Source: a virus. From it: a stretch of 26,881 bases of DNA. The stretch is taken from IMG/VR virus record IMGVR_UViG_3300034375_009923, positions 1 to 26,881 of that record. The stretch is one strand, 5' to 3'. The position numbers and the translations under genes were made by a program. The notes beneath the pieces were generated by a model. It had not been told where the DNA came from, made no database searches, and saw only the letters and a program-made list of their open reading frames with translations. Shown here in pieces: positions 124 to 25,199 of this stretch; within the stretch, counting starts at the first letter, position 1, and each line of letters starts with the position of its first letter.

Positions 124-200
124 TGGTGCGCCCGGCTGGACTTGAACCAGCGACCTTCGAATTATGAGTTCGTTGCTCTAACCTACTGAGCTACAGGCGC
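124..200 (-). tRNA. tRNA with anticodon CAU, probably tRNA-Ile2 (AUA-decoding)
   Basis: A full cloverleaf can be drawn. The acceptor stem is GCGCCTG paired with CGGGCGC, followed by A and an encoded CCA. The D stem is GCTC/GAGC, the anticodon loop is CTCATAA, and the T arm is GCTGG-TTCAAGT-CCAGC. Anticodon CAU could mean elongator Met, initiator Met or Ile2. The G1-C72 pair argues against the initiator. Pairs C4-G69 and C5-G68 are known positive determinants for TilS, which converts C34 to lysidine in tRNA-Ile2, and the T arm matches my memory of the E. coli ileX T arm. Ile2 is therefore favoured over elongator Met, by inference. It would help an AT-rich phage read AUA codons, using host TilS. 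Confidence 0.9.
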
Positions 201-9882: not shown

Positions 9883-10156
9883 TTAGATATAATTCTGTTA
9901 TTATGTCGCAACCTCCTAAAAATTCTCCCTTCACATATAACTGAGGGATTGTAGGCCAATCACTGTATTCTTTTATTGCCTGCCGTAGTTGAGGATTCAT
10001 CAAAACATCTTCTGAGTTATATTCGGCATTTAAAACTTCCAAAATATGTACAACTTTGGCACTAAAACCACATTGGGGTTCCTCTGGAGTCCCTTTCATG
10101 TATAACATAACTTTATTATTAGTTATAGCTTCATCTATTTGTTGTTTAATGTCCAC
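9851..10156 (-). CDS. grxD: Monothiol glutaredoxin (Grx4/GrxD, CGFS type)
   Basis: A 101-aa protein with the CGFS active site at residues 29-32, preceded by MLYMKGTPEEPQ and followed by TIPQLYVKGEFLGGCDI, the glutathione- and cluster-binding segment. CGFS glutaredoxins bind a bridging [2Fe-2S] cluster as dimers and pass it on, often with A-type carriers. The start is GTG at 10156-10154, with AAAGGAAA upstream. Overlaps of 11 bp with sufE and 32 bp with sufT place it firmly in the suf run. The length is typical. Confidence 0.95.
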   Translation of the reverse strand: MDIKQQIDEAITNNKVMLYMKGTPEEPQCGFSAKVVHILEVLNAEYNSEDVLMNPQLRQAIKEYSDWPTIPQLYVKGEFLGGCDIITELYLNGELDAILKG

Positions 10157-10523
10157 TTTTAATTTCCTTTAATTTAAAAATAAGATTTACCATGCCATTA
10201 GATCTACTAGGACTTAAAACAAACCCTAACTTTGTAATCATTTTAGGATCAAATAACTTGGATTCTTCTACAGTAAAATTATTAAATAAATCACAAAACA
10301 TTGCTGCTAATCCTTTTGTAATAACAGCATCTGCTTCACTTTTAATTATATTATCATCTATGTTAATCCATAAATTACTAGCGCATCCGGGAATTAGATT
10401 ACGTTCTACACACTTATCTTTTGGTAAAACAGGGCTATGATTTGCCCAATCTAATATATTTTGGTATCTATCAAAATTGTCAAGTCCTTTAAATTCTTCT
10501 ATTAGTGCAGAAAAATGATCCAT
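10146..10523 (-). CDS. sufE: SufE sulfur-transfer protein
   Basis: A 125-aa protein that accepts persulfide sulfur from SufS and passes it to SufB. The sulfur-accepting Cys47 lies in NLIPGCASNLW, the SufE active-site loop. DNFDRYQNILDWANHSPVLP matches the family N terminus, and SKLFDPKMITKLGFVLSPSRSNGM the C terminus. It is slightly shorter than E. coli SufE (138 aa). It lies two genes downstream of sufS, separated by rpiB, and overlaps the grxD gene. Confidence 0.93.
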   Translation of the reverse strand: MDHFSALIEEFKGLDNFDRYQNILDWANHSPVLPKDKCVERNLIPGCASNLWINIDDNIIKSEADAVITKGLAAMFCDLFNNFTVEESKLFDPKMITKLGFVLSPSRSNGMVNLIFKLKEIKSGH

Positions 10524-10525
10524 AT

Positions 10526-10951
10526 TTAACTAAATTTTCTAATTCTAGTTTCGTGTCTTCCGCCTTCGAACTCTGTTTTAAGAAAAATATTAACAATATC
10601 TCTTACAATAGAAGGATTCACTGTCCTTGCTCCTAAACATAATACATTTGCATCATTGTGTTTCCTAGTCATTTCTGCAGCATAAACATCATTACATAGT
10701 GCTGCCCGAATAGTAACAATCTTGTTTGCAGCCATACTCATACCTATACCTGTGCCGCAAACTAAAATACCAAAGTCTGCACGATCCTGCAAAATTTCAG
10801 CACACACTTTTTTAGCATAATCTGGATAATCAACACTATCAGGTGTATTGCAACCTAAATCTGTTATTTCAATATTATGTTGCTTCAAATGATCTACAAT
10901 CATGTCTTTTACTAAATAACCTGCATGATCACTTCCTATTGCTATACGCAT
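10526..10951 (-). CDS. rpiB: Ribose-5-phosphate isomerase B
   Basis: A 141-aa enzyme that interconverts ribose-5-phosphate and ribulose-5-phosphate. MRIAIGSDHAGYLVKD is the phosphate-binding start. Cys65 in GILVCGTGIGMSMAANK and His98 in MTRKHNDANVLCLGAR are the catalytic residues of RpiB. Full length and intact. It could feed ribose-5-phosphate into nucleotide synthesis, as other phage pentose-phosphate genes are thought to do. Its place inside the suf run, 2 bp from both sufS and sufE, is odd and is discussed as a finding. Confidence 0.94.
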   Translation of the reverse strand: MRIAIGSDHAGYLVKDMIVDHLKQHNIEITDLGCNTPDSVDYPDYAKKVCAEILQDRADFGILVCGTGIGMSMAANKIVTIRAALCNDVYAAEMTRKHNDANVLCLGARTVNPSIVRDIVNIFLKTEFEGGRHETRIRKFS

Positions 10952-10953
10952 GT

Positions 10954-12141
10954 TTACTCTTTGTTGGAATTTTTAGTTAATGTATCTAAACTTTTTTGTA
11001 AAGCTACTTTAAACATTTTAACATCTTTTTCATCATTAATCAAGCCTGAACTTGCTCTTACTACACCTTTTTTACTTATACGTTTTACATAAGGCTCTGC
11101 ACATAAATTACCTCCCCTAACGGCAACATTCTGTGATCCTAATAAACTTGCAACATCAAAAGCATCAAACTCTGATATAAAGCTACAAATGCAATCTGAG
11201 TTTTCATTAACAACTTCACAATTCAACCCTTTTACAATAATATTTAATTCTTGGATAATCTCTTTTGAATACTCTTTTGCTTTTTCTCTACCAATGTCTG
11301 TTAAAAAATTACAAGATTCTGCAAAACCCAATGCTCCAGCAATATTAGGAGTTCCAGCTTCAAACTTAGCAACTCCTTCACTGTATACTGCATTACCGAT
11401 AGTAACTCTGTCTACAGTACCTCCACCTACTTGCCAAGGTTTCATTTTTTCTAATAATTTTTGGTCTACACATAAAGCACCTATACCAGTAGGTCCGTAC
11501 ATTTTATGAGCACCAAAACTAACAAAATCTGCTTTAGGATAGGTATGATATTTAATACTTTGTGCTGCATCAACATGCAAGTAACAATCAAAAGTTTTAG
11601 CAAAATAAGCTATTTTTTCTAAAGGTTGCTCTATACCTGATACGTTCCCTACATGAGCTAATGTTAATAATTTTCGTTTACTAATACTTTGTGTGCTTTT
11701 TAAAACATCTTGCAGGTTATCTAAATCTATCAAACCATTGTTGTCGTACTCTAGCCAATATATTTTTACACCTTGCCTTTGTTGTAACTCGATCCAGGGC
11801 AGCATGTTACTGTGATGCTCACAACTTGGAACATATATACCATCATCTTTTCCCCAGTCGCTACAAAAACTATAAGCTAATAAGTTAATACTTTCCGTTG
11901 TTCCTCTTGTAAAAATACACTCAGGAGAACTAAACCCTGCAAATTCTGCAACTGTTTCTCTAGCATTTTCATATGCTACAGTAGCTTGTTGTCCTAGTTC
12001 GTGTGGAGAGCGATGTATGTTAGCTCTCATTTTTTCGTAGTATTTGTATTCACTATTAATTACTGATGTAGCTGTAGGGCTTGTGGCAGCATTATCAAAA
12101 TATGCCCATTCATCGTTATTATGAAATAAGTCTTTGAACAT
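10954..12141 (-). CDS. sufS: SufS cysteine desulfurase
   Basis: A 395-aa PLP enzyme that removes sulfur from cysteine to start cluster assembly. Visible features: AYFDNAATSPT at the N terminus, VPSCEHHSNMLPW (PLP-stacking His), VDAAQSIKYHTY (PLP Asp), SFGAHKMYGPTG with the Schiff-base Lys at about 213, and RGGNLCAEP with the active Cys at about 347. In typical SufS the last motif is R-x-GHHCA; here HH is replaced by NL. The ATG at 12141 is preferred over the TTG at 12144 because of an upstream GAGAG. It overlaps sufD by 23 bp. Confidence 0.95.
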   Translation of the reverse strand: MFKDLFHNNDEWAYFDNAATSPTATSVINSEYKYYEKMRANIHRSPHELGQQATVAYENARETVAEFAGFSSPECIFTRGTTESINLLAYSFCSDWGKDDGIYVPSCEHHSNMLPWIELQQRQGVKIYWLEYDNNGLIDLDNLQDVLKSTQSISKRKLLTLAHVGNVSGIEQPLEKIAYFAKTFDCYLHVDAAQSIKYHTYPKADFVSFGAHKMYGPTGIGALCVDQKLLEKMKPWQVGGGTVDRVTIGNAVYSEGVAKFEAGTPNIAGALGFAESCNFLTDIGREKAKEYSKEIIQELNIIVKGLNCEVVNENSDCICSFISEFDAFDVASLLGSQNVAVRGGNLCAEPYVKRISKKGVVRASSGLINDEKDVKMFKVALQKSLDTLTKNSNKE

Positions 12142-12703
12142 CAATTAATCTCTCTATGTGTTTATCAGCTTCTGCTGATTGTACTAGCATTGAATTAATA
12201 ATTCCCTGTAACAACAGCTCTTTTGCATTTTTAATTCCTCTAGTATTAAGATAGAAAAGCTGATCTGCATTAAAATATCCCATTGAGCATCCATGACTAC
12301 ATTCTACACTATCTGTATGGATATATAAATCAGGTCGTGCTAGTATTACACTAGAATTATGAAGCAAAAAGTTTTTGATATTTACATGAGCTGAATTGGC
12401 TTTAGTACCTTTGTTAATTGTAACTCCTACAACATTGGTGATACTACTATCTTTGCCTGCAATGTTGAGTGACTTTACAGTTACTGAATTATTATTACCA
12501 GTACATTTAATATTTATATTCACTTCTGTTTCAAAATCAACAGCAGTATTTACAATATAAACATTGGCATTATTATTATTACCAAGGTTGATAGATGTAT
12601 TTATCTGTTCTGAAGCACCATAATAACCAAATATCTCCAAATTTGCATAGTGATAAACTTGATTAGATTTAACATCTTTAAGTGAACTGATTATATCCTT
12701 CAT
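12119..12703 (-). CDS. sufD: Half-length SufD scaffold protein
   Basis: A 194-aa protein, less than half of cellular SufD (about 420 aa). It keeps the end of the beta-helix and the C-terminal domain: INIKCTGNNNSVTVKSLNIAG strands, HNSSVILARPDLYIHTDSVE, then CSHGCSMGYFNADQLFYLNTRGI. The His in CSHG corresponds to the SufD His360 thought to help form the cluster at the SufB-SufD interface. The N-terminal helical domain is missing. No stop or frameshift remnant is seen: the start lies within the sufC end (26-bp overlap). This looks like a streamlined working SufD that still pairs with SufB and SufC. Confidence 0.85.
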   Translation of the reverse strand: MKDIISSLKDVKSNQVYHYANLEIFGYYGASEQINTSINLGNNNNANVYIVNTAVDFETEVNINIKCTGNNNSVTVKSLNIAGKDSSITNVVGVTINKGTKANSAHVNIKNFLLHNSSVILARPDLYIHTDSVECSHGCSMGYFNADQLFYLNTRGIKNAKELLLQGIINSMLVQSAEADKHIERLIDVQRLIS

Positions 12704-13391
12704 TTTTTATTTTTTGTAACATATTTGGTTTATAAGTATTCAATTTGGAGTTTGCTATTACATGAACTTGTGATGGCTGCAAATAGTCATATAACTTAAA
12801 GTTGTGACTTACAACAATACAAGCAGTATCAGATGTTAAATAATTTTTAATTAGTTCTGCTATAATATGCAATGCATCTACATCTAGTCCACTATCGATT
12901 TCATCTAGTAACAACAATTTGGGTTTAAGCATCAGCATTTGTAAAATTTCCATTTTTTTACGCTCTCCACCACTAGCATTCAAATTGAACAAACGTTGGT
13001 GCCAATCTTGTCCTAGTTCTAACTTATTTGCATTATCTTTAAATTCAGTTAGTATTTGTTTAATTTTAACTGTGCTATCACGTTCTCTTACAGATTCTCT
13101 AACAACAGCCATGTTACTGATTCCTTCTATTTCTATAGGCTGTTGAAATGTCATGAATATTCCAGCTTTTGATCTTTCATCTGGAGGCAACTCTGTAATG
13201 TCTTTGTCGTTAAAAAATGTTTTACCTGTTACATCAAAAGTTTTTCCCATTATTGCATTTAATAATGAACTTTTGCCACTGCCATTTGGTCCAAGCAAGG
13301 CATGTATTTCACCTGGATTGATAGCAAAGTTTACCTTGTCTAATAATTTTTTTCCATTAATACTAACAGAATAATCTAGTAATCTAAGCAT
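12678..13391 (-). CDS. sufC: SufC ATPase of the SufBCD scaffold
   Basis: A 237-aa ABC-type ATPase. Walker A GPNGSGKS is at 34-41, the Q-loop FQQP at 81-84, the signature ASGGERKK at 138-145, Walker B LLLLDEIDSGLDVD at about 158-171, and the H-loop His at 195 in VVSHN. SufC binds SufB and SufD and changes the scaffold's shape on ATP binding. It has no membrane partner here, as expected. AAGGAGA lies right before the ATG. It overlaps sufD by 26 bp and the upstream small gene by 8 bp. Confidence 0.96.
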   Translation of the reverse strand: MLRLLDYSVSINGKKLLDKVNFAINPGEIHALLGPNGSGKSSLLNAIMGKTFDVTGKTFFNDKDITELPPDERSKAGIFMTFQQPIEIEGISNMAVVRESVRERDSTVKIKQILTEFKDNANKLELGQDWHQRLFNLNASGGERKKMEILQMLMLKPKLLLLDEIDSGLDVDALHIIAELIKNYLTSDTACIVVSHNFKLYDYLQPSQVHVIANSKLNTYKPNMLQKIKNEGYNQFT

Positions 13392-13650
13392 GTCTCCTTT
13401 TTGCTTCTAAAGCCTGTTGTCTTAATACATTTGCATTGTGTTCACAAATAAGAGCTTCTATTTCACAAACCTCAGCGTGAAGTTCATCTTTTCTAGCTTG
13501 TAGTTTACTTAAAACATCTTGAGGTATAACATTATTTACAAAATAATTTTCTTTAGTATATTTTAGCATAATATTATCTGTGTACCAGGTTTTACGAAGT
13601 TGTTCTACTTTTCTTGCATTTTCTGCTATTAAATCTCTATAATCTGACAT
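13384..13650 (-). CDS. Unknown 88-aa coiled-coil protein between sufB and sufC
   Basis: A soluble, mostly helical product with a likely coiled coil from residue 45 on (LSKLQARKDELHAEVCEIEA) and a basic C terminus. It has two Cys (about residues 62 and 69) and no known Fe-S motif. It overlaps sufC by 8 bp and follows sufB by 18 bp. I do not recognise it. Its fixed position within the scaffold genes suggests a phage-specific partner of SufB or SufC, but nothing in the sequence proves that. Confidence 0.6.
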   Translation of the reverse strand: MSDYRDLIAENARKVEQLRKTWYTDNIMLKYTKENYFVNNVIPQDVLSKLQARKDELHAEVCEIEALICEHNANVLRQQALEAKRRHA

Positions 13651-13668
13651 ATAATTTTTTATTGATTG

Positions 13669-15093
13669 TTATCCTATTGCTCCTTCTAACTGTACTTCTA
13701 ATAATTTATTTGCTTCTGCAGCAAATTCCAAAGGTAATTTATTAAATACATCTTTACAAAAACCATTTAGTATAAGAGTACTTGCTTTTTCTGGACATAA
13801 ACCTCTTGTATTAAGATAGTATAGTTGATCTTCGTTTAACTTACTAGTGGTTGCCTCATGTTCTATTATAGCATCTTTTCTACTATTTTCAATATAAGGA
13901 ATTGTTACAGCACTACATTTGTTTCCTAATAACAAACTATCACACTGAGTAAAATTCCTGGCACCTTGTGCTTCATCAGCCACCCTTACTAAACCTCTAT
14001 AAGCATTACTACTTGATCCTGCTGATATTCCTTTACTGATTATCCTGCTTCTGGTATTTTTACCTAAATGGATCATCTTGGTTCCAGTGTCTGCAACTTG
14101 ATGATTATTTGTGAGTGCAACACTGTAAAATTCTCCTATACTGTTATCTCCACGTAAAATACAACTAGGATATTTCCAGGTTATCGCACTACCAGTCTCT
14201 ACTTGTGTCCAACTAATTTTGCTTTTGTTACCTTTACACAAACCACGTTTGGTTACAAAATTATAAATACCACCTTTTCCGTTTTCATCTCCTGGGTACC
14301 AATTTTGTATTGTACTATATTTAATTTCAGAATTTTCCATAGCTACTAGCTCTACTATTGCAGCATGTAGTTGATTTTCATCTCTCATTGGAGCCGTACA
14401 ACCTTCTAAGTAACTCACATAACTGTTGTCGTCTGCAATAATTAATGTCCTTTCAAACTGTCCTGTTTCACGTTCGTTTATACGGAAATAAGTGCTTAAC
14501 TCTAATGGACATCTAACTCCTTTAGGAATATAAACAAAACTACCATCACTGAACACTGCAGCATTTAAGCAAGCCCAAAAATTATCAGTATATGGTACAA
14601 CTGTACCCAAATACTTTTTAATAATATCTGGACACTTCTGTACACCTTCATTAAAACTACCAAATATAATTCCTTGCTCAGCAAGTTTTTCTTTGTATGT
14701 AGTACCTAAACTAACACTATCAAATACAGCATCAACAGCAACACCTGCTAATGCAGCCTGTTCTTTTAGTGGTATACCTAATTTTTCAAAATCAGCTAAA
14801 ATTGCAGGGTCAACTTCTTCTAAACTTTTAGGACGATTTTTAGGTTGACTGTAGTAGTGAATGTCTTGAAGATCAATACTTGATAAATTAAAACTGGCCC
14901 ATTTAGGTTGTTTTAAAGTAAGCAATCGCTTATATGCCTTTAAACGATACTCTAATAACCAACTAGGTTCAGAATTTTTTTCGCTTATAGCACGAATTGT
15001 ATTTTCAGACAATCCTTTACTGAATACCTCAGATTCAACATCAGTAACAAATCCAGCATTGTATTTTTGATTGACTATGTTTTCTATACTCAT
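13669..15093 (-). CDS. sufB: SufB Fe-S scaffold protein
   Basis: A 474-aa protein, close to full cellular length (about 480-495). It has [37 protein letters not shown] and the long beta-helix region with [33 protein letters not shown] contains the Cys equivalent to E. coli SufB Cys405, and [19 protein letters not shown] carries the conserved Glu-His-Glu. These are the residues implicated in sulfur acceptance and cluster formation. The C terminus ([21 protein letters not shown]) is typical. It overlaps the upstream gene by 4 bp. No catalytic residue appears to be lost. Confidence 0.97.
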
Positions 15094-16142: not shown

Positions 16143-16451
16143 TCAATCACTGTTAATAACTTTGACCTTAGCCCCATCCCATGATTCATCTAATTTAATT
16201 TGACATCCCAATCTACTATTATCATAAGATTCAAAAACAAAAGCATCGATAGTGTCCTGTTCATCAGCTTGCTTTTCTGAACTACCTCCTGATTCTACTA
16301 CGATATGACAGGTTCCGCAATCTAAAAATCCACCACATATACCAAATCCTTCATCAAGATTATTTTGAATCATCAAACTTGTGAGTTTTTGCTTATTACG
16401 AAATTCATAGTCATTTGTGTTGCCATTTTTGTCTGTAATTGTTATTTTCAT
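16143..16451 (-). CDS. [2Fe-2S] ferredoxin, adrenodoxin/ISC type
   Basis: A 102-aa protein with cluster ligands Cys39, Cys45, Cys48 and Cys83: C-x5-C-x2-C in GICGGFLDCGTCHIVVE and the last Cys in RLGCQIKL. This spacing is that of adrenodoxin and bacterial Fdx used in Fe-S assembly and P450 reduction, not of plant photosynthetic ferredoxins in general. It lies 2 bp after the reductase gene, and a clear AAAGG precedes the ATG. The likely job is to carry electrons from the reductase to the SUF system or to another reductase. Confidence 0.93.
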   Translation of the reverse strand: MKITITDKNGNTNDYEFRNKQKLTSLMIQNNLDEGFGICGGFLDCGTCHIVVESGGSSEKQADEQDTIDAFVFESYDNSRLGCQIKLDESWDGAKVKVINSD

Positions 16452-16453
16452 TT

Positions 16454-17464
16454 TTACCTTTTTAACATTTCTATCAAATTTGTACTTGTTGTTGTGTACT
16501 GAAATTCAGGAGTTTCACCTTTTATACGTTTGTACGCAGATTGAACTGCAAGTGTGGTTTCGTGAAATCCACTTAAAATCAATTTTAATTTACCTGGATA
16601 GGTATTACAATCTCCTACAGCATATACACCGGGTATATAGGTTTGGAAATTTTCTGTGTTTACATTAATAAGTCCATTGATACCCCATAATGCTTCAAAA
16701 CTCTCTATGTTAGCTTTTGACATAATTAAACCAAAAAACATGTAAATTTTATCTGCGTTTAAAAAATATTCTGATTCTTTTTGATTAATTAATACGCCTT
16801 TATCATTAATGCTAATTGCATTACTATTTAAATACAAACTTATTTCATTTTTTGATACTTTATCCATTAGTGCATCAACACTGTGCGGAGCAGCTCTAAA
16901 TTTACCTGTTCTATGTACTAGCGTTAATTTTTTAGGAATTTGTCTTTCATTAAGTAACAAACACCAGTCTAATGCAGAATCTCCTGCTCCAAAGATAACA
17001 ACTTCCTTGTCTTTAAGACTATCTATATTTTTTAATGTATAATTTACAAGTCCTGAATTTTCGTAAACATCTAAATTTTCTAAATTAGGCTTTTTAGGAA
17101 CAAATTTTCCTCCTCCACTTGCCATGAAGATACTACCAGCACTAATAAATTCACCAGATTTTAATTCTATTATAAATAGGTTTTCTTTTTCTTTGTTAAC
17201 TGTGAGTATTTCGTTATTTAAATATAAATCATAGTTAAAAGGTTTAATTTGTTCTAGTAAAGCATCAACATGTTGTTGTGCAGTTTGGTAAGGAACTCCA
17301 GGTATATCGTAAATTGGTTTTTCTGGATATAATTCAGTACATTGTCCACCTGGTCTATCCAACGCATCCACAATACCACAGGTTAATCCCAGTAGACCTG
17401 CTTCAAATACTGTGAAAAGACCAACAGGGCCAGCACCGACAACAAAAATGTCATAATATTTCAT
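16454..17464 (-). CDS. fnr: Ferredoxin-NADP+ reductase, thioredoxin-reductase-like type
   Basis: A 336-aa flavoprotein of the YumC type. The FAD dinucleotide fold is at 9-15 (VGAGPVG), RPGGQCTELYPEKPIYDIPG matches the family, and the NADPH fold is at 159-166 (GAGDSALDW) followed by LVHRTGKFRAAP. A second FAD motif is GVYAVGDC near 279-286. The redox-active CxxC of thioredoxin reductase is absent (residues ASGGG at that point), which supports FNR. It lies between a ClpS-like gene (4-bp overlap) and the [2Fe-2S] ferredoxin, so it can pass NADPH electrons to that ferredoxin. Confidence 0.93.
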   Translation of the reverse strand: MKYYDIFVVGAGPVGLFTVFEAGLLGLTCGIVDALDRPGGQCTELYPEKPIYDIPGVPYQTAQQHVDALLEQIKPFNYDLYLNNEILTVNKEKENLFIIELKSGEFISAGSIFMASGGGKFVPKKPNLENLDVYENSGLVNYTLKNIDSLKDKEVVIFGAGDSALDWCLLLNERQIPKKLTLVHRTGKFRAAPHSVDALMDKVSKNEISLYLNSNAISINDKGVLINQKESEYFLNADKIYMFFGLIMSKANIESFEALWGINGLINVNTENFQTYIPGVYAVGDCNTYPGKLKLILSGFHETTLAVQSAYKRIKGETPEFQYTTTSTNLIEMLKR

Positions 17465-17742
17465 AAAGATTTTATTTCAATGTTTAAATCGATTTTTTTA
17501 AGTTTAGCAATAGAGTAAGCTTCTAATGCCTTTTGCTCAGCAATTTCATAGTTATATTTGCCTGCTGTAATTTTTCCATTTTGTAACAAATCAGACATTA
17601 ATTGCACAGTATGTTCAACATCATGATTAAAAATGTCTTTTAGTATTTCAGAAAATTGAGACAAATCATTACTAGAAGTTTTTTCTACAACAACTTCATA
17701 TTTACTAGGTAATTTTAATTGTGTTTTTGTAGATACTTCCAT
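17461..17742 (-). CDS. Degenerate ClpS-like protein
   Basis: A 93-aa ClpS relative. The second half, NGKITAGKYNYEIAEQKALE, aligns well with GKAQAGLYSFQVAEQKAYE of the phage ClpS at 4753-5055, and the helix before it also matches. The N-degron pocket is broken: NDD becomes NDL, and the key His is replaced by Leu (residue about 53). Most of the ClpA-entering tail is kept in length but not in sequence. AAGGAGT before the ATG at 17742 is a clear RBS; a TTG nine bases upstream overlaps it and is rejected. It is the first gene after a late promoter and leads the SUF run. Confidence 0.75.
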   Translation of the reverse strand: MEVSTKTQLKLPSKYEVVVEKTSSNDLSQFSEILKDIFNHDVEHTVQLMSDLLQNGKITAGKYNYEIAEQKALEAYSIAKLKKIDLNIEIKSL

Positions 17743-18418: not shown

Positions 18419-18877
18419 TTAACCTGTTACGACAGGAATTTGCTTAGGACGTTCTTCTTCTGGAATAATTTGTTCTAAGTCTACAGTCAACAAACCATTC
18501 TTTAGTACAGCATTTTTTACCTGTACATGTGGTCCTAATCTGAAAGTTCTTTCAAACCCTCTTGTTGCAATTCCTCTGTGCAAGTAGTTCTTCTTTTCTG
18601 AAGCATCTACTGTTTCTTTTTTGCCGCTAATTGTCAACACTCTTTCCTTTTGAGAAACGTTGATTTCTTCTTCAGCAAAGCCAGCAATAGCCAAGCTGAT
18701 TGTCCAATTGTTTTCATCGACTTCCTCAATATTGTATGGAGGATAGCCTACATCACGTGTAGGATAATTAGAGTGGAAAGTTTCCAAATCTCTGAAAATA
18801 CTGTTCATTCCTACTGTGAATGGAATCAATGATGAAATAGCGTCATTTAAAGATGAGGTTGTAAGATGTCGTGTCAT
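18419..18877 (-). CDS. hsp20: Small heat shock protein Hsp20 (alpha-crystallin family)
   Basis: A 152-aa chaperone. The alpha-crystallin domain is visible from NWTISLAIAGFAEEEINVSQ through VLTISGKKE to FRLGPHVQVKNAVLKNGLLT, and the C-terminal tail carries QIPVV, the I-x-I/V anchor. The ATG at 18877 is chosen because AAGGAGAAT precedes it; the longer frame to 18937 starts upstream of the RBS and just after the promoter. Hsp20 is a frequent gene of marine T4-like phages. It has its own late promoter (18943-18950) and a hairpin after the stop, so it is an isolated transcription unit. Confidence 0.95.
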   Translation of the reverse strand: MTRHLTTSSLNDAISSLIPFTVGMNSIFRDLETFHSNYPTRDVGYPPYNIEEVDENNWTISLAIAGFAEEEINVSQKERVLTISGKKETVDASEKKNYLHRGIATRGFERTFRLGPHVQVKNAVLKNGLLTVDLEQIIPEEERPKQIPVVTG

Positions 18878-18942
18878 GTTATTCTCCTTATTAAGCAAGA
18901 CATATAAAATGCAAGCACCCACAATTGGCATGCTCACATAAT

Positions 18943-18969: not shown

Positions 18970-19197
18970 TCAATAATATTTTATATATTTTTTGAGTTGT
19001 TTGTTAATTTCACGTTCACGTCTAGCAATAGATTTTTGTTTTTCTATTCTTTTTTTATCACTGGGTTTTTGATAAGCTTTACGATTATAATATTCTTTTA
19101 TTATTCCGCTCTCTAAAGTCATTTTTTTAAATCTTCTAATTGCCTTGTCTGTTTCATTATATTTTACATAAACAATAAATCTAGTTGCGTTTGCCAT
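18970..19197 (-). CDS. rpsU: Ribosomal protein bS21
   Basis: A 75-aa basic protein matching bS21: VKYNETDKAIRRFKKMTLES, then GIIKEYYNRKAYQKPSDKKR and a Lys/Arg-rich C-terminal helix. bS21 sits near the anti-Shine-Dalgarno end of 16S rRNA and affects start-site choice. bS21 is one of the ribosomal proteins most often carried by phages, including phages of SAR11. The start overlaps the end of the IF-3 gene by 17 bp, so both are co-translated. The length is near the cellular 70 aa. Confidence 0.95.
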   Translation of the reverse strand: MANATRFIVYVKYNETDKAIRRFKKMTLESGIIKEYYNRKAYQKPSDKKRIEKQKSIARREREINKQLKKYIKYY

Positions 19198-19684
19198 TCG
19201 TTAGTATTGCAATAATCTTGTTATGATTTACTGTGGGTTTCTGTTCCCATTCAGTATCAGGAATCATTTCTTTGACTTTGTCAAGTAATACAACTCCCTT
19301 ATCAGCTTGCTGAATTTGCCTGCTAAATAACTTCACAACAAGTTTAACTTTCTTGTTTATATTTATGAAATTCTTTATTTTATTTGCTTTAACTTCTAGA
19401 TCATGTTGTTGAGTCATTAACTTGAACTGCATTTCTTTTGTTTCTATTATACTTTGACGTTGTTTTTGTTTGTTTTTTTTGTCTTTGCGACTCTGCTCAT
19501 AAAACCATTTGCCTTTATCACAAATTTTGTAGACTGGTGGATCTGCTTTATCTGTAACACATACTAAATCTAATTGCCGCTCTTTAGCAATTACTGATGC
19601 TTCAAAATAACTTACCACTCCTTGTTGTGTTCCGTCATCTAAAATAAGTCGTACTTGTTTTGGTTTTGGTTTAAATTCTTTCAT
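19181..19684 (-). CDS. infC: Translation initiation factor IF-3
   Basis: A 167-aa protein with both IF-3 domains. The N domain has VRLILDDGTQQGVVSYFEAS, then LDLVCVTDKADPPVYKICDKGKW. A Lys-rich linker helix (about residues 68-85) follows. The C domain has KEMQFKLMTQQHDLEVKANK, FININKKVKLVVKLFSRQIQ and the closing beta strands. Residues that bind 16S rRNA in the C domain (Lys and Arg around KVKLVVKLFSRQ) are present. It is slightly shorter than E. coli IF-3 (180 aa), at the N terminus. The start is ATG, unlike the rare AUU of cellular infC, so that autoregulation is lost. Confidence 0.93.
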   Translation of the reverse strand: MKEFKPKPKQVRLILDDGTQQGVVSYFEASVIAKERQLDLVCVTDKADPPVYKICDKGKWFYEQSRKDKKNKQKQRQSIIETKEMQFKLMTQQHDLEVKANKIKNFININKKVKLVVKLFSRQIQQADKGVVLLDKVKEMIPDTEWEQKPTVNHNKIIAILTNGKRN

Positions 19685-19686
19685 AT

Positions 19687-20091
19687 TTAAAAAAAATATT
19701 CTCCTAATTCATCTAAGGTATTAATGTATACTGCTTGGGATTTATAAAAACATAATGATTCTAAATTTTTATCTGGATTTTCGCTAAAAACAAAAGTTTT
19801 TTTTGTTTTAGCAAAATTAGTTATAAACGCTATTTTTTCTAAAGTAATATTGTTAAAATCTACAATTATATGTTGTACTTGCTCTGCTGTTGACATATTC
19901 CAACTGATTGTATCAATATTATGCCAATCTTCTTGTAAATAAAATATAAAATCTTTTAGTATTGCACTATCTTCTATTGTGCTTACTACTTCAGCTATCC
20001 ATTCAGGATCTTCACTGGCTAAGAAAAAACTCATTTCTCTAGACGGAACAAACAAACTAGGATAGGTTATTGTTATAGACTCATTACTCAT
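19687..20091 (-). CDS. Hypothetical acidic protein, 134 aa
   Basis: A soluble product with many Glu and Asp residues. Visible parts: YPSLFVPSREMSFFLASEDP, EWIAEVVSTIEDSAILKDF, a VQHIIVDFNNITLEKIAFIT strand-helix unit, and KTFVFSENPDKNLESLCFYK. The alternating strands and helices suggest a Rossmann-like or CheY-like fold, but no catalytic motif is seen. It is coupled to the membrane gene by an 8-bp overlap and lies 2 bp before infC, so it could act with the translation genes. Not recognised. Confidence 0.55.
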   Translation of the reverse strand: MSNESITITYPSLFVPSREMSFFLASEDPEWIAEVVSTIEDSAILKDFIFYLQEDWHNIDTISWNMSTAEQVQHIIVDFNNITLEKIAFITNFAKTKKTFVFSENPDKNLESLCFYKSQAVYINTLDELGEYFF

Positions 20092-21466
20092 GTGCTGGTT
20101 TATTTAAAAATACTTTTGTGGGTTTTTGATTTGGTTTTATAACTTCATCAATTATTTTTTGAGGGTTTTCTTTATTTTGTTTTATTATTTCTTTTTCTTG
20201 TACTGTAAGTTCTTGTATAACTTCTTGTTTAATATCTATTTCTTCTGAAGTTATAGTATTATTTATAGTTTCTTTTTTTCCAAAAATATTTATTTCTTCA
20301 TTAGGTATCCATTTATCTCGGTTAATTAATGTCATGTTAGCTGCAATTAGCAATAAAACTGCCAATGGATCAAAAACAAAAATAATTAATATAATTACCC
20401 ATTTTACTGCTTTTTCTAATAAATTTTTATCTGCTTGTTCTCCATAAACAAATTCTGCAATATATTTAATAGGACCAACTTCAGCTTCTAATTTTCTGTA
20501 GTCTGATTCTATTTGATACTTTTGCTCAGTCAAAATATCTATTTGACTGTTGCTATCAGTAATTTTTTTAAGTTCTTCATCTATCAAAGTTCCCACATTA
20601 ACTTGATCTGAACTTTGTAATTGTTGTTGATATTGTTGTATCAGGTTATTAGATTCAGATATTTGTTTATCGGCTTGTGTTCTAAGTCTTGTTATTTCCT
20701 GTCTTGCTGCAACTGTGTCTGGACTGTTTGAACTATTTTGTATCTTTTCTAACCAACTGTTTCGTTCTGCATTTTTAATATCTTGGAAATTTTGGAATGC
20801 AGCAGCAGTAGCAGGTCCATATTTACCATCAGCCTTTGTACCAACAATACCTTGTGCTTTAGCTATTTCATTATTATCAATATAGCTATTGAGTGTAGAC
20901 AAAATTTCATCTATTTTGTTTAATTCTTGTTGATATAATTTTGTGGAATTTTTGATTATTTCATTTTGCTCATCAACAAGTGGTTGTATTCTAGCATAAG
21001 CGTTATCAATACGTTCCTGTTCAATATTTATTTGCGTTTGTACACTGGCTTGTATACCAGTTCCTTTTGATTCTAATGATGTAATTTTTTCTTCAGATCT
21101 ATTAATTATACTTTCATATCTAGCAATATCATTTTCTATTCTTTCTACTTGTGCTAGATTTTCTATATTAGCACTGGTCTGTTCAACATGAGCTTTTGAC
21201 AAAAAACCAAATATACCCATTGACGTAATGAACATCAATACTATGACAGCACTTGTAAGATAATATTTGATTAATTTAGGAACGTAAAACCAATAACGGT
21301 AAAGCCAACTTGCACTTACAAGTTTAGCAACTTCAAGTGCAGAGCCCATAATAGCGACAGGAATAGCAGCACTAGCAAAAATTGCAATCAACCCTGCAAT
21401 CGAATACCATGCTGCTATGAAACTGATTGTAAGAGCAGTAAAAAATACTAAAAATGTAAAAATCAT
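20084..21466 (-). CDS. Membrane protein with coiled coils and a peptidoglycan-binding motif
   Basis: A 460-aa product. Hydrophobic helices lie at about residues 1-20, 24-45 and 70-89, and another at 355-378 (VKWVIILIIFVFDPLAVLLL). Between them is a long Gln/Glu-rich coiled-coil region (about 95-330), broken at 203-228 by AQGIVGTKADGKYGPATAAAFQNF, which matches the PG_binding_1 pattern (G-V-x-x-DGxFGPxT). The C-terminal 80 residues are charged and cytoplasmic-looking. The family is not recognised. The layout suggests a protein that spans the inner membrane and holds the cell wall, perhaps for lysis timing or exclusion. Confidence 0.6.
   Translation of the reverse strand: MIFTFLVFFTALTISFIAAWYSIAGLIAIFASAAIPVAIMGSALEVAKLVSASWLYRYWFYVPKLIKYYLTSAVIVLMFITSMGIFGFLSKAHVEQTSANIENLAQVERIENDIARYESIINRSEEKITSLESKGTGIQASVQTQINIEQERIDNAYARIQPLVDEQNEIIKNSTKLYQQELNKIDEILSTLNSYIDNNEIAKAQGIVGTKADGKYGPATAAAFQNFQDIKNAERNSWLEKIQNSSNSPDTVAARQEITRLRTQADKQISESNNLIQQYQQQLQSSDQVNVGTLIDEELKKITDSNSQIDILTEQKYQIESDYRKLEAEVGPIKYIAEFVYGEQADKNLLEKAVKWVIILIIFVFDPLAVLLLIAANMTLINRDKWIPNEEINIFGKKETINNTITSEEIDIKQEVIQELTVQEKEIIKQNKENPQKIIDEVIKPNQKPTKVFLNKPAHE
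20260..20267 (-). promoter_or_regulatory. Possible internal late promoter (TATAAATA)
   Basis: An exact TATAAATA on the minus strand lies inside the 3' end of the membrane-protein gene, about 170 bp before the next start at 20091. It could give extra late transcription of the downstream unknown gene, infC and rpsU. Being inside a coding region of an AT-rich genome, it may be a chance match. Confidence 0.25.
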
Positions 21467-24065: not shown

Positions 24066-24212
24066 CTAACCTTGGCCTCTATAACGTTTCCAGCTACGCC
24101 TTTTGTGCTTGTTTAAAGGTTTACTATTACGACCTTTTCCTTGGCTTGTACGCTTTCTTCTGTTAGCATTTAAACTAAATTTATTTTTTACTGTTGTTGT
24201 TTTTTTAGACAT
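24066..24212 (-). CDS. 48-aa very basic protein next to tmRNA
   Basis: ATG at 24212-24210 with AAGGAAAT upstream; TAG at 24068-24066. The product is MSKKTTTVKNKFSLNANRRK, then a stretch of Arg, Lys, Ser, Gly and Asn, ending WKRYRGQG. About a third of the residues are Lys or Arg. It has no hydrophobic core and must bind RNA or DNA if folded; it resembles small ribosomal proteins in composition only. It starts 15 bp after the last helix of the tmRNA coding piece and shares its transcript. A role with the tmRNA or ribosome is a guess from position. Confidence 0.65.
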   Translation of the reverse strand: MSKKTTTVKNKFSLNANRRKRTSQGKGRNSKPLNKHKRRSWKRYRGQG

Positions 24213-24221
24213 ATTTCCTTT

Positions 24222-24480
24222 TTGTGGTAGGGAGTTTCTGTTCCCAGGTACTCCCTAAACCCGTTCAGCTTATGCTGCTAATGCAACCTGAGCTGGAGAA
24301 TAATCGCTGTTGTTTGCAATTATAAAGTTGATGGTGGTCATCACCCTATTTGCTCTCTCTGTTACTATCATTTACTGTCGAATACCTAAACACCCCCATG
24401 TGTTGAAATGTTATGGTGGAGGTGGCCGGAATCGAACCGGCGTCCAATAAACTACCCTTACAGGTCTACAAGCAAACTAT
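24222..24480 (-). ncRNA. ssrA: Permuted two-piece tmRNA
   Basis: In transcription order, the acceptor piece comes first. Its T arm is GCCGG-TTCGATT-CCGGC, followed by acceptor strand CACCTCC, A, and CCA ending at 24414. A 16-nt spacer follows (24413-24398). The coding piece then starts at 24397 with GGGGGTG, which pairs with CACCTCC (one G-U), then GGTATTCGACAG, the tmRNA D-loop, and a tag frame ending at 24270. A stem TAGGGAGT/ACTCCCTA (24228-24257) closes the 3' end. AGTAAA (24371-24376) can pair with TTTATT (24446-24451) to join the pieces. This permuted order is known from alphaproteobacteria and some cyanobacteria. Outer ends are approximate. Confidence 0.93.
24270..24317 (-). other. tmRNA tag frame: ANNSDYSPAQVALAA
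   Basis: From a GCA resume codon (24317-24315), the frame reads ANNSDYSPAQVALAA followed by TAA. The last residues, ALAA, are the usual degron end seen by ClpXP and ClpAP. The start AN and the polar middle part are typical of tmRNA tags. The length (15) is slightly above the common 8-15 range in alphaproteobacteria. The resume codon is inferred from tag convention. Confidence 0.9.
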
Positions 24481-24489
24481 TAATAAGTA

Positions 24490-24497
24490 TATTTATT
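24490..24497 (-). promoter_or_regulatory. T4-type late promoter element before the tmRNA
   Basis: Minus strand AATAAATA, about 10-15 bp before the likely 5' end of the acceptor piece of the tmRNA. Since -10 elements of late promoters lie about this far from the start, the tmRNA can be expressed as a phage late RNA. Confidence 0.6.
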
Positions 24498-24509
24498 TTT
24501 AGAAAAAAG

Positions 24510-25199
24510 TCAAGTAAATTTTCTATATCGCAATGTAGGATTTATAAACTCATCATATACTGATTCTAATAATAGTAAATTAAAATTATTACAAGTTTCT
24601 ATAAATTTTTCTTTAGAAGTATACAAATCTTCATAGTACAATATGGGTATATTTAGACGATTAGATATATTTGTTACTACTTCTATTGAATGTAATAACA
24701 AATTAGTATTTGTTACACAAACCTGATCATACTTTACATCTATATCTTTATATTTTTTATGAAAGACACTGATTTTTGGAGTTAGTGTATTATTCCAAGT
24801 ATAATCTGCTATTATTTTGCTTTTGATTTGATCTCCTATATTTTTTCTTAATAATAATATTATTCTATCAAAATTTTTTGCATATTTTAAAAAAAAGTTA
24901 GTTTGTTCTTGTAAAAAATTTTTAGATAAATATTCATTTTTTTGAATATTTTTTTCTTCTTCTACAACTAGCTCACTTTTAAATTGTGTAGGCCAATGAT
25001 TAAACCAGGTAAGGCACTTATATACTTCGTTATTCTTTATTTTATCAGGTGCATATTTAAATCTATACAATCTTTCACTATCAGGATTTACATCATAATT
25101 GAAAGGTTCATGATTGGGTTTAAGATTATAAGCTTTACTTATCGCTTCTAAAAATTTTGTGCTTCCTGTTCTAGGAGCAGCTATTATAAAAATATTCAT
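24510..25199 (-). CDS. Sulfotransferase-like protein
   Basis: A 229-aa product starting MNIFIIAAPRTGSTKFLEAI. APRTGST (8-14) is the 5'-phosphosulfate-binding loop of PAPS-dependent sulfotransferases and Stf0-like proteins. HEPFNYD follows, and FDRIILLLRKNIGDQIKS (about 110-127) matches the 3'-phosphate-binding region (R...S). The C terminus has IPILYYEDLYTSKEKFIE, also typical. It would transfer sulfate from PAPS to a sugar or other acceptor. It is coupled to the glycosyltransferase by a one-base overlap, so both may modify the same phage or cell-surface glycan. The substrate cannot be told. Confidence 0.75.
   Translation of the reverse strand: MNIFIIAAPRTGSTKFLEAISKAYNLKPNHEPFNYDVNPDSERLYRFKYAPDKIKNNEVYKCLTWFNHWPTQFKSELVVEEEKNIQKNEYLSKNFLQEQTNFFLKYAKNFDRIILLLRKNIGDQIKSKIIADYTWNNTLTPKISVFHKKYKDIDVKYDQVCVTNTNLLLHSIEVVTNISNRLNIPILYYEDLYTSKEKFIETCNNFNLLLLESVYDEFINPTLRYRKFT

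Follow-up and report, generated by a model that had tools for sequence, protein, structure and literature searches.

IF3 and bS21 genes in the window

The window analysed here, meaning the whole stretch of 26,881 bp, is the IMG/VR virus record IMGVR_UViG_3300034375_009923 with a GC content of 30%. Essentially every gene is located on the minus strand, and the family matches include an endolysin and a tail-fibre-assembly protein of phage type as well as UvdE. An infC-like gene at 19181..19684 (minus strand) starts with ATG and encodes a translation initiation factor IF3 of 167 aa. It is followed by an rpsU-like gene at 18970..19197 (minus strand), which encodes the ribosomal protein bS21 (75 aa) and has its ATG start within the 3' end of the IF3 gene. 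The two genes share 17 nt (19181..19197, minus strand), and the IF3 stop codon TAG falls inside bS21. A sequence-only reading of this DNA had already named the overlapping pair, and both its coordinates and its gene identities are borne out by Pfam, PHROGs and PDB sequence searches, with structure as a further line of evidence for IF3.

The IF3 protein matches both IF3_N (E 7e-21) and IF3_C (E 3e-16) of Pfam past the cut-offs, as well as phrog_9787 'translation initiation factor', and has the family architecture of N-terminal domain (NTD), linker helix and C-terminal domain (CTD). Its AlphaFold model (pLDDT 88) places the linker helix at residues 57-81 and matches the solved structures 1tig (CTD, TMt 0.86), 1tif (NTD, TMt 0.73) and 5lmn. 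The pTM of the model is low, as expected for two domains joined by a flexible linker. The RINxxIR N-terminal segment is absent from the window IF3. The bS21 protein matches Pfam Ribosomal_S21 past the cut-off (E 3e-11) and phrog_21469 'ribosomal protein S21', and the RRFK and YxKPS-type motifs of the family are present as IRRFKK and AYQKPS.

Several neighbours of the pair are also part of a conserved arrangement described below. Upstream lies a gene for a 134-aa protein (19687..20091, minus strand), ending 2 nt before IF3 and overlapping by 8 nt the gene of a 460-aa putative membrane/coiled-coil protein (20084..21466, minus strand). The latter gave no match in Pfam and PHROG searches; its GTKADGKYGPATAAAFQNFQ stretch recalls peptidoglycan-binding repeats. 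Downstream of bS21 are an Hsp20 chaperone gene identified by family match (18419..18880, minus strand) and a ClpS-like adaptor gene (17461..17742, minus strand), the start of the latter being an ATG three codons inside the longest open reading frame. Both have the strong Shine-Dalgarno (SD) motif TAAGGAG.

Overlapping junctions are frequent in the window (28 of 51), hence the overlap alone is unremarkable and informative only through its conservation; the idea that it is special in itself was rejected. The starts of the two genes are more telling. The sole SD-like motif for IF3, AGGAG, is 16 nt from the ATG and not well placed, and the bS21 start inside IF3 has no SD. Because neither start has a well-placed SD, bS21 is likely started by translational coupling to IF3. 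The sequence-only reading had pointed to good SD motifs in many genes, and a usably spaced SD-like motif does precede 21 of the 52 mechanical gene calls, but neither IF3 nor bS21 has a well-placed one. Its link to GTG or TTG starts was not upheld, as only 7 of the 52 calls have them and some of these contain an in-frame ATG with an SD. The cellular infC operon is infC-rpmI-rplT with an AUU start. The window gene belongs to the same IF3 family but differs in its bS21 partner and its ATG start. Escape from AUU-based control, another suggestion of that reading, is thus literally true; however, with no well-spaced SD at the IF3 ATG, the gene is more likely controlled through coupling to its upstream neighbour.

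Conservation of the pair in other phages

A bicistron was defined as bS21 directly after IF3 on the same strand, either overlapping or with a gap of at most 5 nt; the window pair has this form. IF3 adjoins or overlaps bS21 in 16 viral contigs; this count takes in the window and several contigs that are near-copies. The junctions comprise overlaps of 17, 8 or 4 nt and gaps of 2-5 nt. The exact 17-nt overlap is kept in a near-identical contig (L002) and in a diverged one (L004). Compared with the window, L004 has the same gene order, with 76% aa identity in IF3 and 100% in bS21, and the IF3 genes differ by dN 0.17 and dS 1.14 (NG86; dN/dS about 0.15), a sign of purifying selection. Since order and overlap are kept at such dN and dS values, IF3 and bS21 are not chance or decaying reading frames. 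Further viral IF3s with bS21 directly downstream were found at about 40% identity by a profile scan of viral contigs. Among them, L240-L246 have a 4-nt ATGA overlap with the SD-like GAGGAAAG, and L248/L249 show a 64-nt overlap by longest open reading frame, where an internal ATG after GAGGAAAG gives the same ATGA overlap. An 8-nt overlap is found in L247 and L251 (the same contigs as L083 and L084), and gaps of 5 and 2 nt in L250 and L252, respectively. L077 has a gap of 52 nt and is outside the count of 16. With 16 contigs and at least three overlap geometries, the pairing has outlived divergence to about 40% identity. Within regions of roughly 3 kb around 30 cellular IF3 genes, bS21 was absent.

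The pair is part of a shared cassette with the order membrane protein, ClpX or small protein, IF3, bS21, Hsp20 and ClpS, in which every paired phage compared keeps the 460-aa protein upstream of IF3 and bS21. The slot upstream of IF3 holds ClpX in L247, L250, L252 and L077 and a small protein in the window, L240 and L248; the window 134-aa protein is weakly similar to the 141-aa protein that fills this slot in L240. SufS/SufB genes are near the cassette in some phages, with SufB/SufS homologues near the pair in L247 and L252.

Two side observations concern individual contigs. In L247 (3649-5841, plus strand), ClpX, IF3 and bS21 are successive overlapping genes (4 nt, then 8 nt), an order that ties proteolysis to initiation in one operon. 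Between the window and L004, similarity drops at about 19570 (about 5625 in L004): identity is about 99% in bS21 and Hsp20, against 58-77% (nucleotides) in the IF3 N-terminal half and the upstream genes. A recombination boundary inside or near IF3 is likely on this pattern.

The two genes also occur together beyond the bicistron. Among 50 mostly large viral records picked by IF3 similarity, 34 also encode bS21, and in all 34 both genes are on the same strand within 20 kb (median distance 6.7 kb). The control was a sample of viral contigs of at least 40 kb drawn with two random exact 14-mers (n=39), in which bS21 was found in 3/39 and IF3 in 0/39, in agreement with the earlier remark that phage IF3 is uncommon. 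The difference in bS21 (34/50 versus 3/39, Fisher p 5e-9; for records of at least 80 kb, 31/47 versus 2/18, p 8e-5) should be read loosely as the records are not independent. It is common for bS21 to occur in the absence of IF3 (HTVC008M, Aegir, SCTP-2), but the reverse is seldom seen. In two huge phages of 636 and 735 kb, IF3 and bS21 are hundreds of kilobases apart.

Phylogeny and residues of phage IF3

A tree of 66 rows included nine non-redundant paired IF3s and 23 sampled cellular IF3s, one Pelagibacteraceae genome among them. The nine paired IF3s and that of Xanthomonas phage XaC1 form one group of ten (bootstrap 93, SH-aLRT 86). The window IF3 belongs to the phage IF3 clade, and the cellular IF3s, Pelagibacteraceae included, fall outside it. 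Because it groups with phage IF3s and apart from the sampled cellular ones, the window IF3 is, as judged by this tree, an old phage protein and not a fresh host copy; recent capture from a host is ruled out among the cellular IF3s sampled. In XaC1, ClpS adjoins IF3 and no bS21 was detectable. Strict monophyly of the paired IF3s was not retained as the unpaired XaC1 lies inside the group, although a tree holding the pairs together is not rejected (p-AU 0.415).

In Thermus thermophilus IF3, Arg91, Arg123 and Arg159 sit at the start codon or anticodon stem-loop (PMC5037330), and alignment maps them to R99, R131 and R168 of Escherichia coli. The corresponding residues are K88, F120 and N155 in the window and K, L and N in L004. 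Asn at E. coli position 168 is present in 9/9 paired IF3s, 0/28 cellular IF3s and 18/72 other viral IF3s. Accordingly, R168N is clade-wide among the paired proteins, and Arg131 is lost in the window lineage. A literature search on the IF3 R131P mutant found no report. The sequence-only reading had regarded missing rRNA-contact residues as decisive against its proposal. The outcome is mixed: cellular-conserved arginines are lost (R112N, R116N, R131F, R168N) or conservatively swapped (R99K, R129K, R147K), but R25, Q33, Y75, K110 and R133 are kept. Mutation of Tyr75, intact here, lowers fidelity but leaves the affinity for 30S unimpaired (PMC5037330). These changes are read as altered rather than absent IF3 function, and we infer that 30S docking is retained and the codon check altered. 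They suggest that the start-codon or SD-context check of phage IF3 is different and probably relaxed, the direction being a guess. As several 30S-binding arginines are lost, weak 30S binding is also possible.

A putative translation-initiation module

The adjacency of a divergent IF3 and bS21 in phages that are only distantly related suggests that phages use the two together to control initiation on host ribosomes. With slightly better than even confidence, we prefer to read the pair as a phage module for translation initiation that is made by coupled translation and refits host 30S subunits. One polycistronic mRNA would yield both proteins, ribosomes finishing IF3 starting bS21 at the overlap without an SD. 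On the 30S platform, next to where 16S rRNA carries its anti-SD end, phage bS21 would then stand in for the host protein, and close to the P site phage IF3 would fill the sites of IF3. With both acting on the same newly formed 30S initiation complexes, initiation would move in favour of phage mRNAs, in which genes are tightly packed and an SD is often lacking. The altered CTD residues close to the codon would give a different, probably relaxed, start-codon or SD-context check. The joint role in initiation put forward by the sequence-only reading fits the conserved pairing and co-occurrence; altered start selection is something we infer. Against the module speak the two huge phages in which the genes are far apart, XaC1, which shares the IF3 clade but has no detectable bS21, and the lost 30S-binding arginines.

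The putative relaxed-selection step was added because host-type IF3 in excess reduces SD-less re-initiation in E. coli (PMC2268962), and a phage IF3 without changes would thus work against the proposed role. From the same effect, IF3 may possibly be a negative regulator of its own coupled partner bS21. A stronger version is rather unlikely in our estimate. It holds that the pair is an ancient dedicated device supplying a relaxed-fidelity IF3 (R168N, with R131 lost here) in fixed proportion with its own bS21, such that the refitted 30S accepts SD-less coupled phage starts which host IF3 would reject. If true, such 30S subunits would be in an initiation state specialised for the phage.

A simpler explanation, unlikely but deserving the most weight among the alternatives, is that the phage tops up IF3 and bS21 after host shut-off with start selection unchanged, and pairing keeps the two in step. 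Purifying selection, the domain architecture and most structural residues kept in both proteins agree with it, as does the general maintenance load of the contig (tmRNA, tRNA, Hsp20, ClpS, SUF operon). However, a spare copy has no need of the codon-proximal Arg changes, clade-wide for R168N (9/9) and extended to R131 in the window lineage. It is very improbable that IF3, bS21 or both instead poison or sequester host ribosomes, or serve as an anti-association factor, without aiding phage initiation. Pelagiphage bS21 does enter E. coli 70S ribosomes and cut translation to about 5% (Mizuno 2019, PMC6375957), and M13 fails to grow in E. coli when IF3 alone is overproduced (PMC2268962). Yet phages need working ribosomes to the end, the host in the bS21 test was non-native, and in other phages the peak of bS21 transcripts coincides with that of structural genes (PMC9723584).

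Equally improbable is that the genes are neighbours through ancestry and dense packing with no joint function. The many overlapping junctions of the window would allow this, and the wider synteny common to paired phages means that the pair could have been inherited with the block. On the other hand, the pair persists at about 40% IF3 identity while other genes around it change, with ClpX in place of small proteins or SUF genes inserted, and IF3 and bS21 show looser linkage in other large phages.

Relation to known systems

Phage bS21 was known, as the sequence-only reading stated, even alongside IF3 (PMC7162821, PMC11242549). IF3, IF1, S1, S21 and L7/L12 were described in huge phages together with a proposed redirection of host initiation (Al-Shayeb 2020, PMC7162821). 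The S21 proteins there carry basic/aromatic N-terminal extensions, as in L247, L250 and L252, unlike the window bS21 with almost none; the passages covered describe neither an adjacent or overlapping IF3-S21 pair nor altered IF3 residues. IF3 was also noted in a few jumbo phages (PMC7824862). The Sinorhizobium jumbo phage AP-J-162 carries IF3, S21 and L7/L12 (PMC11242549). Like Phosso, it has IF3 and bS21 in one genome with ClpX adjoining IF3, but the two genes are apart, unlike in the window (gp547 versus gp532 in AP-J-162, about 7 kb in Phosso). HTVC008M, the phage of Mizuno 2019, has bS21 as in the window but no IF3, and additional virus or host factors were suggested there as perhaps needed (PMC6375957). 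In Chen 2022 (PMC9723584), phage bS21 is linked to late expression and has Hsp20 and Clp genes nearby, like the window, and the clades treated there carry bS21 and the structural genes on opposite strands; IF3 is not among the neighbours in the passages covered.

Hence, that phages carry IF3 and bS21, sometimes within a single genome, was already published, as was the hijacking model (Al-Shayeb 2020; Mizuno 2019; AP-J-162). The new part is a conserved IF3-bS21 bicistron with a clade-specific IF3 change; a search of the main texts of openly available papers found no report of an adjacent pair. Where there were only separate hijacking candidates, the bicistron offers a unit of two defined parts, open to expression and testing, and a specific residue prediction on start-codon checking. 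A missing IF3 partner may explain why ribosomes were crippled by phage bS21 alone in the only biochemical test found. The idea that viruses remodel ribosomes in favour of their own mRNAs would then be open to a direct in vitro test.

Other genes of the contig

Another translation gene, away from the pair, is a permuted two-piece tmRNA of alphaproteobacterial type (24179..24517, minus strand) with the tag ANNSDYSPAQVALAA. Because of its type, an alphaproteobacterial host is suggested for the window phage; marine phages such as Melnitz are known to carry a two-piece tmRNA (PMC9004378). SufB was uninformative as a host marker, its matches of 65-71% being spread over many phyla. A tRNA with anticodon CAU (124-200, minus strand) resembles tRNA-Ile2. 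Read by eye, it pairs G1 with C72 and its anticodon stem lacks GGG/CCC, features for which a role as initiator tRNA of the phage was rejected.

A near-complete SUF iron-sulfur assembly operon occupies 10146-15093 (minus strand) and comprises SufB, SufC, SufD, SufS and SufE, with a short SufD (194 aa) and RpiB between SufS and SufE. At 16143-17464 (minus strand), a ferredoxin-like 2Fe-2S protein adjoins a pyridine-nucleotide-disulphide oxidoreductase, and the two are possibly the electron supply for the SUF genes.
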